NCBI RefSeq assembly: GCF_002944315.1
Contig: NZ_CP024311.1
Location: 1,774,501-1,838,500, forward strand
From: Rhizobium sp. NXC24
GTDB taxonomy: Bacteria > Pseudomonadota > Alphaproteobacteria > Rhizobiales > Rhizobiaceae
Length of the DNA: 64,000 nt
Direction of reading: 5' to 3'
Notes under the pieces: generated by a model
The model's input: the letters and a program-made list of their open reading frames with translations, nothing else
The model's database searches: none
Told to the model about the DNA's origin: nothing
Position numbers and translations under genes: made by a program
Part shown: in pieces, positions 17,156 through 34,641 of the stretch
How positions within the stretch are numbered: position 1 is the first letter of the stretch
Layout of the letters: each line of letters begins with the position of its first letter

Positions 17156-17622
17156 TTTATATCCCTTTCGAGGATTTGGAGATCTCGTCGGTTCCGCGAT
17201 TGGTTCCGTCCTCGATCTGATGAATGCGAATATATGCTGCACTGCGAAAATCAAAAAGAGCGATTGCTACATGCCACCTATGCGCAAGATGCAATCCAAT
17301 AGGGGGGTTGGTTAACGCGGTGACCGCTTTTTGTGCATAACGGAGTTGCGCGAAAGCAGCCATTTGGCATGCAATTGGTTGAATTTGCGAACTTTAGCTC
17401 AAATCATGAGCAATTGATCGGGCGCCGCCCATCCGCGGTCGGATCCATATCATCCTGCGAGCCCGTAACGGATTGTAGATCGCTAGAGATTGAGCGCACG
17501 AGAAAATTCCCGTTGCCGCATGCTTTGCGCTCTTCCAAATCCTTGAGCCGCCTAAAAGGGGCGCGCAAACGATCTCCGCCGATTCGTAGGGCAATAACCG
17601 ATTTAATGGGAGATAAAAAATA
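17156..17622. other. Spacer between DUF1127 copy 2 and the hairpin RNA
   Basis: This 467-base gap contains the DUF1127 leader and upstream motif in its first 100 bases. The remainder is moderate in GC and I see no convincing ORF, RNA gene or repeat in it. The open frames across it have no ribosome-binding site or recognisable product. Confidence 0.6.
17234..17252 (-). promoter_or_regulatory. TGCA-N-TGCA-like motif upstream of DUF1127 copy 2
   Basis: On the gene's strand the block reads TTTTCGCAGTGCAGCATATA, centred 87 bases upstream of the start. It aligns with the block upstream of copy 1, including the following ATATTCG. The LysR-type regulator VtlR/LsrB is known to activate DUF1127 genes in relatives, but I cannot tell whether this is its site. 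Confidence 0.45.
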
Positions 17623-17655
17623 ACGCCCACCGCGGGAGGAGGATGCGGTGGGCGT
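17623..17655 (-). terminator. Terminator hairpin of the cuckoo-type RNA
   Basis: ACGCCCACCGC and GCGGTGGGCGT form an 11-pair stem around an 11-base loop with the CCTCCTCCC motif (minus strand); a T-rich run follows on the minus strand at about 17611-17622. Confidence 0.85.
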
Positions 17656-17735
17656 CATTTGTGGTGATTGACGACTGGGAGGAGGAGTGTCGTCAATCCA
17701 TCGGAGCGCACTGGGAGGAGGAGTGTGCGGCTCCG
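17623..17735 (-). ncRNA. Tandem anti-Shine-Dalgarno hairpin RNA (cuckoo/CcsR type)
   Basis: Three hairpins lie in tandem. Plus-strand coordinates are 17623-17655 (11-pair stem), 17666-17698 (10-pair perfect stem) and 17702-17735 (10-pair stem, one bulge). Every loop, read on the minus strand, contains the nonamer CCTCCTCCC; the last two loops are identical over 13 bases. The hairpin that comes last on the minus strand (17623-17655) is followed by TTATTTTTTATC, so it doubles as the terminator. This is the architecture of the alphaproteobacterial cuckoo RNAs, including CcsR1-4 of Rhodobacter sphaeroides, which accompany a DUF1127 gene. The stems differ completely while the loops are conserved, which argues for selection on the loop sequence. 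The 5' end is unknown. Confidence 0.85.
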
Positions 17736-17758
17736 AATTCTATATGAGGAATTCATCC

Positions 17759-17815
17759 TCAGGCTCTTTCCGGCTTTCGCCGAAGCGGCGCGCCACGCCG
17801 TCCTTCGATGCTCAT
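17759..17815 (-). CDS. Possible 18-residue Arg-rich small ORF upstream of the hairpins
   Basis: ATG at 17815 opens an 18-codon frame (MSIEGRRGAPLRRKPERA) ending just before the hairpin array on the same strand. Seven of 18 residues are Arg or Lys. No Shine-Dalgarno sequence precedes the ATG, so it would have to be leaderless or poorly translated. Its stop overlaps a small hairpin at 17745-17761. In Rhodobacter a DUF1127 ORF precedes the equivalent RNAs; this peptide is much shorter and cannot be assigned to that family. Confidence 0.25.
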   Translation of the reverse strand: MSIEGRRGAPLRRKPERA

Positions 17816-17837
17816 AAAATAGTATGACTTTTGATTT

Positions 17838-17856: not shown

Positions 17857-18059
17857 CATAGGAGGTATGCTTCATATGCATACGTTGACGCGCATCAATA
17901 CCGCAAACGACCATTATGCGAAGTAAGCCTTAACTCTGCATTAACACGGTGCGGCCTTGCGCGAAGCTCGGCCTGTTTTGAAACGCGAAAGAGCGACCTC
18001 GATCGCACCCATTTTGTGATAAGACACTCAGGGATGTTGGAATCGCTGTCAGGGGCGCG

Positions 18060-34214: not shown

Positions 34215-34289
34215 TGGCACGCCCTAGGGGAGTCGAACCCCTCTTTACAGAATGAAAATCTGTCGTCCTAACCGATAGACGAAGGGCGC
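34215..34289 (-). tRNA. tRNA-Glu (anticodon TTC), copy 1
   Basis: A 75-nt cloverleaf with encoded CCA on the minus strand. The anticodon stem ACAGA/TCTGT encloses TTTTCAT (anticodon TTC). The T arm GAGGGGTTCGACTCCCC is perfect. It is base-for-base the same as copy 3 over the tRNA body. Confidence 0.96.
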
Positions 34290-34408
34290 GTGCTGTGGCG
34301 CCCTTATAGTCAGCACCTTTTGTTCCCGCAAGCGGAAAATCGAGAAAAATCTACGGGTAAGGGCGAATTTTTCGAGGTACTTGTGGAAAAGTTCGTGGTG
34401 GGTCCGAT

Positions 34409-34483
34409 TGGTACGCCCTAGGGGAGTCGAACCCCTCTTTACAGAATGAGAATCTGTCGTCCTAACCGATAGACGAAGGGCGC
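34409..34483 (-). tRNA. tRNA-Glu (anticodon CTC)
   Basis: Same body as the flanking copies but the anticodon loop reads TTCTCAT (anticodon CTC, for GAG). The discriminator base also differs: A here, G in the neighbours. It lies 120 bases from copy 1 and 84 bases from copy 3. Confidence 0.96.
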
Positions 34484-34566
34484 AGGCTGCGCTTGCGACC
34501 ATATAGGAATAGCGCAAAGCCACCGCAAGCGGAAGGTAGCTCATTGTTGTAGGAGAGGAAGAACAG

Positions 34567-34641
34567 TGGCACGCCCTAGGGGAGTCGAACCCCTCTTTAC
34601 AGAATGAAAATCTGTCGTCCTAACCGATAGACGAAGGGCGC
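34567..34641 (-). tRNA. tRNA-Glu (anticodon TTC), copy 3
   Basis: Identical to the copy at 34215-34289 in the tRNA body, with anticodon TTC. The cluster is a tandem TTC-CTC-TTC array on the minus strand. Confidence 0.96.

Follow-up and report, generated by a model that had tools for sequence, protein, structure and literature searches.

The cuckoo RNA of Reinkensmeier and Giegerich (2015) reportedly consists of 2 to 4 adjacent hairpins. Under a definition drawn partly from PMC10253847 and PMC10746234 (both in part, a phrase used here where a statement rests on part of a paper's text), the loops carry CCUCCUCCC and the stems are variable. Alpha-r14 (ar14) RNAs are defined by three hairpins with an anti-Shine-Dalgarno (aSD) motif in the loops and variable stems (PMC10746234, in part). 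An association with DUF1127 genes is in print for the CIN1 locus (PMC10253847, in part). In NfeR1 of Sinorhizobium meliloti, three loops silence mRNAs redundantly, and silencing needs the loops (PMC10746234, PMC7143759, both in part); the targets are two ABC transporter proteins and ntrB. NfeR1 is activated by LsrB (PMC10746234, in part). AbcR1/2 interact with Hfq, whereas NfeR1 does not (PMC8844928). Of the six copies in S. meliloti, only one is detected dependably by Northern blotting (PMC7143759, in part).

The locus analysed here lies on the minus strand of a 64-kb stretch of Rhizobium DNA, which as a whole we call the window. The minimum free energy (MFE) fold of 17590-17780 (-) reached -78.3 kcal/mol, compared with -44.3 ± 3.8 kcal/mol for shuffled sequences (z -8.89; 0 of 200 as good). 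It contains three hairpins: the first has 11 pairs and one bulge, the second 10 pairs, and the third 16 pairs including an A-U extension, 11 of them in its core (17623-17655). The stems are unlike one another in sequence and the loops are alike, as the original prediction had described them. Hairpins 1 and 2 share an identical 13-nt loop, and the 11-nt loop of hairpin 3 has nine bases in common with it. The aSD character of the loops was likewise borne out: the motif CCTCCTCCC occurs three times in the window, every time on the minus strand and at one of the three loop sites (Table 1), against a dinucleotide-shuffle mean of 0.47; three occurrences were reached in 1 of 100 shuffles. The 3′ arm of hairpin 3 continues into UUAUUUUUUAU, and the U-run that follows makes this hairpin terminator-like in sequence. 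It is probably the terminator of the RNA, the role first proposed for it.

An Rfam search, one of the checks originally suggested, returned a match to RF02344 (ar14) over the whole model, positions 1-123, at 113.9 bits against a gathering score of 58.8. Each of the three loops carries the aSD motif and the stems vary, in line with the alpha-r14 definition. The traits of cuckoo RNA and CIN1 are present as well, with adjacent hairpins, CCUCCUCCC in each loop, variable stems, and short DUF1127 genes adjoining on the same strand, 472 and 939 nt away. The locus had been called a cuckoo or CcsR-type RNA; a cuckoo-kind aSD RNA beside DUF1127 genes is what we found, but the CcsR label has to be replaced by ar14. 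The CcsR1 model (RF02791) scored 29.1 bits on hairpins 1 and 2 and 16.2 bits on hairpin 3, both under its cut-off of 65.3 bits, and the CcsR1 trait of co-transcription downstream of a DUF1127 gene is absent, judged by gene order only. Membership of the 6C RNA family (RF01066) was also rejected (29.4 bits against a gathering score of 47).

The hairpins are members of an already described family of rhizobial aSD small RNAs. The observation is genuine, yet with the family known and a corresponding RNA already sequenced from a relative it is for the most part unremarkable; what is out of the ordinary here is a likely extra folded 5′ leader. A previously uncharacterised Rhizobium RNA is now placed in a family of known mechanism. 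The features of the locus are collected in Table 1.

Table 1. Features of the alpha-r14 locus in the window, by position, strand and basis of assignment.
Feature	Position	Strand	Basis or remark
Alpha-r14 (ar14) RNA core, three CCUCCUCCC-loop hairpins	17618..17741	-	Rfam RF02344, model 1-123 complete
Hairpin 1, loop motif 17713-17721	17701..17736	-	MFE fold; 4/11 pairs changed on both sides, 22 orthologues
Hairpin 2, loop motif 17677-17685	17666..17698	-	MFE fold; 4/10 pairs changed on both sides; pairing in 100% of cells
Hairpin 3, probably the intrinsic terminator; loop motif 17634-17642	17618..17660	-	MFE fold, then U-run
-10 element CTATTT	17817..17822	-	Conserved class A block AGTCATACTATT
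LysR-type box TGCA-N6-GCAT, NfeR1 kind	17867..17880	-	NfeR1 box in PMC10746234 (in part)
Full transcript as predicted, about 194 nt; start placed to within a few nt	17616..17809	-	Inferred from conserved -10 and terminator hairpin
Predicted 5′ leader, three small hairpins, outside Rfam ar14 model	17742..17809	-	Covariation in two stems; single folds; SmelC398 length
LysR-type box TGCATCTTGCGCAT of first DUF1127 gene, ATATAT at 17230-17235	17280..17293	-	Box in 24/24 loci
First DUF1127 small protein, 48 aa	17009..17155	-	PF06568, 59.4 bits
Second DUF1127 small protein, 53 aa	16548..16709	-	PF06568, 45.9 bits

We looked for ar14 in 41 genomes, the window's own and 40 relatives. It was present at E ≤ 0.001 in 33 of them and over the cut-off in 26; in the window's genus, all 25 genomes of the sample had a match at E ≤ 0.001. 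The 7.3-Mb genome of the window itself holds four ar14 copies and six DUF1127 genes over the family cut-off. To measure linkage we compared the 125 listed genus matches over the cut-off with the best 86 DUF1127 matches (E to 7.4e-11). A DUF1127 gene lies within 1.5 kb of 47 of the 125, on the same strand in 47 of 47, which is a lower bound because only those best 86 matches were used. In 22 of the 47 linked copies the RNA is upstream of two DUF1127 genes (class A); in the other 25 it is downstream of one (class B). The window belongs to class A, and its two downstream genes on the same strand, already noted in the original prediction, both match PF06568 (Table 1). This layout recurs in 24 of the 25 genus genomes, two weaker matches included; the one genome in which we found no class A copy (G003) is an assembly 82% complete, in 1320 contigs. 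For comparison we fetched 16 of the 25 class B loci and 20 of the 78 copies without DUF1127, one of which (L092) was unplaceable in the box counts given below.

Two alignments were made from the 24 class A rows, A1 without loci L060, L063 and L064 and A2 without the degenerate L063 and L064. In 22 of the 24 loci, 98.9% of cells pair across the 30 stem pairs, and 9 of the 30 pairs have changed on both sides. The covariation score was reached by 0 of 500 shuffles, and when the partner was shifted by 1 to 3 columns pairing fell to 23-54%. One of five covariation measures, that of further pair types, was not above the shuffles (17 vs 17.5) in these 22 loci. Hairpin 3 has changed least, with 8 invariant core pairs and 1 of 9 changed on both sides. 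Loops 1 and 2 remain whole in 22 of the 24 orthologues. Full nine-base loops number three in 9 loci, two in 13 and fewer in 2; loop 3 is shortened in 13. Loops varying freely over fixed stems would have spoken against the original prediction; by these counts loops 1 and 2 stay constant on stems that change on both sides, while loop 3 is partly free. In the two degenerate orthologues (L063 of genome G021, L064 of G015), two of three aSD loops and the -10 are gone, and the hairpin outlines remain. The RNA structure with its compensatory changes, the family membership, the orthology of the locus and the conserved promoter block are established.

By eye, a fourth hairpin with a CCTCCTCCC or similar loop stands before the Rfam three in L073 and most other class B loci (L065-L079); the same was seen by eye in L091, L092, L097 and L100. 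Elsewhere in the window, three tandem tRNA-Glu genes lie at 34215-34641 on the minus strand, with anticodons TTC, CTC and TTC.

A pattern built on the first hairpin of class A matched at least 119 stretches in named genomes, 80 of which we took as loci. Among the 80 loci listed are those of S. meliloti 4H41, S. medicae, Ensifer, Shinella, Hoeflea, Martelella and many Rhizobium species. Within stretches of up to 8 kb each, their neighbours are DUF1127 genes (68 of 80), trigger factor (57 of 80) and trmFO (50 of 80). A second ar14-like unit follows the first in 24 of these listed loci, its first loop 279-331 nt past the start of hairpin 1. When 151 genomes were drawn evenly across the family, 11 of them, from 8 out of 109 genera, had the pattern, once each (control 0); this exact branch is therefore not family-wide.

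Upstream of hairpin 1, a block ending in AGTCATACTATT is common to most class A loci, with L060-L064 departing from it. We recognised the upstream element in 72 of the 80 listed named loci; of the 8 in which it was missed, three (L108, L149 and L168) have only 17-40 nt of upstream sequence, and the box was missed in 8 more. At a fixed 30-nt offset, 68 of the 72 have a hexamer that starts [CT]TAT. A box TGC[AG]-N6-[AG]CA precedes the hexamer by 44 nt in 64 of the 72 and by other distances in 0. Set against the alpha-r14 sigma-70 promoter CTTAGAC-N17-CTATAT, which lies directly upstream of the RNA, the window has the -10 CTATTT and a -35 that is only loosely similar by eye; this promoter is about 70 nt further upstream than that of NfeR1, whose own box is at -72 to -60 (PMC10746234, in part). 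Given this NfeR1-like layout and a promoter about 70 nt upstream of hairpin 1, the start would fall near 17809 and the RNA would measure about 194 nt, some 70 nt of it leader. The original prediction covered the hairpins; the probable promoter and leader lie outside its bounds. Over the 72 listed loci the leader measures 6-207 nt (median 72.5). In support of this placement, S. medicae and S. kostiense have just 6 and 10 nt between the same promoter and the hairpin block. The 207 nt belong to Hoeflea, where a DUF1127 frame fills the space.

Within the genus, two stems of the leader pair in 94.7% of cells over 21 rows, with 18 cells changed on both sides, a value matched by 0 of 500 shuffles. 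The number of leader pairs with double changes was not exceptional in these rows (84 of 500 shuffles), and single folds of six sequences were not strikingly stable (z -0.32 to -1.98). A third hairpin, c, appears in single folds and is absent from the consensus fold; the alignment shifts it by one column. A leader model (R1), run on 70 sources, matched the window and 7 of 8 class A loci, two of them weakly (E 0.0014 and 0.0045), and missed L060; it gave 0 matches in 36 loci of other classes and 0 in 25 named loci. We rejected a conserved upstream reading frame in the leader: in the 24-row alignment, by eye, indels whose lengths are not multiples of three put the rows in different frames, and for that reason we claim no leader peptide. 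The open-licence literature, searched by the names alpha-r14, NfeR1 and SmelC rather than by leader, gave no passage on the leader. From sequence comparison we predict that the window RNA is a 194-nt transcript with a 5′ leader, in two stems of which the changes across the genus are compensatory. If the leader is real, the Rfam model, or a probe or deletion built on it, misses about a third of the RNA.

The first DUF1127 gene resembles the RNA in its promoter layout. In all 24 class A loci a LysR-type box lies 135-139 nt before its start and is followed by ATATAT; the second gene has a box in 4 of 24, which we take as chance. The arrangement box-45 nt-TATAT has three matches in the 7.3-Mb genome (control 0), two of them just upstream of DUF1127 genes. 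The third (G000:C1:2490727-2490790) precedes a short unassigned frame, perhaps that of a further small protein in this regulon. In the 80 listed named loci, the pattern of box plus spacing gave 129 matches inside the locus, in 71 of the 80, and 0 elsewhere in 639 kb on both strands; the combined pattern was not found in 9 of the 80. In the window's own genome the box stands before 2 of 4 ar14 copies and 3 of 6 DUF1127 genes. The similar layout makes co-regulation of the RNA with a possible protein partner directly testable.

LsrB (VtlR) is reported to activate three DUF1127 genes in Brucella (PMC12595884, in part) and, in Agrobacterium, atu1667, which encodes a small protein and is described as orthologous to two of the Brucella genes (PMC7486931). 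Reports on AbcR1 of S. meliloti conflict: it is LsrB-dependent in PMC8844928 but unchanged in an lsrB mutant in PMC7486931. We searched for the LsrB consensus GCAT-N3-TG-N3-T with R at the first base. Of the class A loci, 22 of 24 have it in the 330 nt searched ahead of the DUF1127 gene, but 0 of 24 have it before the window-type RNA, which speaks against LsrB control of this copy. It precedes 14 of 16 copies in class B and all 19 placed copies without DUF1127; the background is 61 of 1200 random 170-nt pieces. The NfeR1-type box, by contrast, precedes 21 of 24 class A copies and 2 of 16 in class B; among the others it precedes 16 of 19, with a background of 43 in 1200. The two descriptions of the box thus disagree across copies. 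Judged by its sequence, the window copy may respond weakly to LsrB or to another LysR protein. In the parts available to us of open-licence papers that pair LsrB with DUF1127, we found no mention of the window RNA.

The window copy could be a decaying paralogue of little function, with NfeR1-type copies elsewhere doing the work; the LsrB consensus missing in 24 of 24 class A loci, the shortened third loop, the two degenerate orthologues and the weak expression of most S. meliloti copies (PMC7143759, in part) would all suit that. Against decay speak the retention in 22 of 24 loci of loops 1 and 2 and of stems that still pair and have changed in compensation, the conserved promoter block, and the sequencing of SmelC398 as an RNA (PMC2873474, in part), and we consider it unlikely.

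Very probably, the window RNA is instead the alpha-r14 RNA of the trmFO-DUF1127 (CIN1) locus, the counterpart of SmelC398, acting as a separate trans-acting RNA in the manner of NfeR1. It would be about 194 nt long, start from a promoter of its own that combines a LysR-type box with a sigma-70-like -10, and end with hairpin 3. By homology, the single-stranded CCUCCUCCC loops would then pair with GGAGG-type ribosome-binding sites of a set of mRNAs and block their translation, the three loops serving as redundant seeds on stable stems. We infer that the window copy is transcribed, acts like NfeR1 and carries a leader that functions. Loops that stay invariant while their stems change agree with such pairing and would agree equally well with an RNA whose main task is to bind protein, a sponge collecting a DUF1127 RNA-binding protein or another regulator, as with CcaF1 and CcsR in Rhodobacter. 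CcaF1 does bind RNA and matures CcsR (PMC10253847, in part), and at least 47 of the 125 copies lie no more than 1.5 kb from a DUF1127 gene and share its strand in 47 of 47 cases. Yet NfeR1 silencing requires the loops (PMC10746234, in part), DUF1127 proteins act through protein contacts in other work (PMC12501420, in part), and 78 of the 125 copies have no nearby DUF1127 gene among the best 86 genes counted; we regard a sponge as quite improbable. That the RNA is a leader or attenuator of the DUF1127 genes, its terminator controlling read-through, has in its favour the same strand, the position about 470 nt upstream and a S. meliloti DUF1127 gene under attenuation (PMC12218461, in part), but is highly implausible given the first DUF1127 gene's own conserved box and ATATAT in 24 of 24 loci, the translated uORF used by the published attenuator (PMC12218461, in part) and the second ar14 unit in between in S. 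meliloti 4H41.

In a distant relative of the same order (L037:600-2560), four DUF1127 genes stand in a row beside trmFO; by eye, a TGCA-N6-[AG]CA box precedes each of the four, and cuckoo-type RNAs of two hairpins with CCTCC-type loops follow the last three. In Hoeflea alexandrii (L125:4923-4949 and upstream), a DUF1127 frame separates the ar14 hairpins from a promoter-like CTATAT element; the order resembles that of CcsR, and the box was not recognised there. At the place of that frame, Rhizobium has the folded leader, about 70 nt long, whose UGGCG loop is mostly constant. We offer it as a tentative possibility that the alpha-r14 RNAs of the trmFO locus form a branch of their own, in which an RNA that now stands alone arose from a DUF1127 mRNA. 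The leader would then be a functional module, the remnant or replacement of the DUF1127 frame, and copies of one LysR-type promoter would co-regulate the RNA and the first DUF1127 gene.

The S. meliloti counterpart can be placed by synteny. In strain 4H41, two tandem ar14 units start 30.6 and 30.8 kb from the AbcR1/2 pair, and a published table puts the NfeR1 start 31.3 kb from AbcR1 (PMC7143759, in part). Deep sequencing of strain 1021 found SmelC398, an RNA of 217 nt, 152 nt upstream of SmelC397 (NfeR1, 124 nt) on the same strand (PMC2873474, in part); sm7′, of 214 nt, had been predicted earlier and was then awaiting detection (PMC2573895). For 4H41, assuming a leader, we predict 221 nt and a spacing of 143 nt from NfeR1; the corresponding values of 217 and 152 in strain 1021 support the leader. 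Because the window RNA shares its promoter block and first hairpin with the upstream unit, and by synteny, the counterpart of the window RNA is sm7′/SmelC398 and not NfeR1 itself. A motif count found no second ar14 unit in the 64-kb window. No ar14 copy was found near the three ar15 matches of the window's own genome (G000), and the AbcR synteny was therefore settled in S. meliloti 4H41.

The window RNA thus has three known systems to be measured against. With CcsR1-4 of Rhodobacter sphaeroides (RF02791) it shares CCUCCUCCC loops and DUF1127 linkage. Those RNAs are co-transcribed with ccaF1 from an RpoHI/RpoHII promoter (PMC10253847, in part); unlike that operon, the window has its RNA upstream of the DUF1127 genes, with its own terminator-like hairpin and a separate promoter-like block for DUF1127. 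NfeR1 (SmelC397, SmrC14) is like it in having three CCUCCUCCC hairpins, a CTAT-type -10 and a LysR-type box about 72-57 nt before the start. The two differ in that NfeR1 is given as 115-124 nt, without a leader, whereas the window copy has a predicted one, and in that NfeR1, in the 4H41 sequence and by eye, fits GCAT-N3-TG-N3-T while the window copy does not. SmelC398 (sra38) differs in that the Rhizobium leader model finds no leader there, and S. meliloti in having a second copy, NfeR1, after it where the window has a single copy. Otherwise the likeness extends to the locus, with tig, two DUF1127 genes and trmFO within 8 kb in 4H41, to the same first-hairpin signature, promoter block and leader before the hairpins in that strain, and to the 217-nt RNA at the matching place in strain 1021 (PMC2873474, in part). 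The S. meliloti counterpart of the Rhizobium RNA can now be named: SmelC398.
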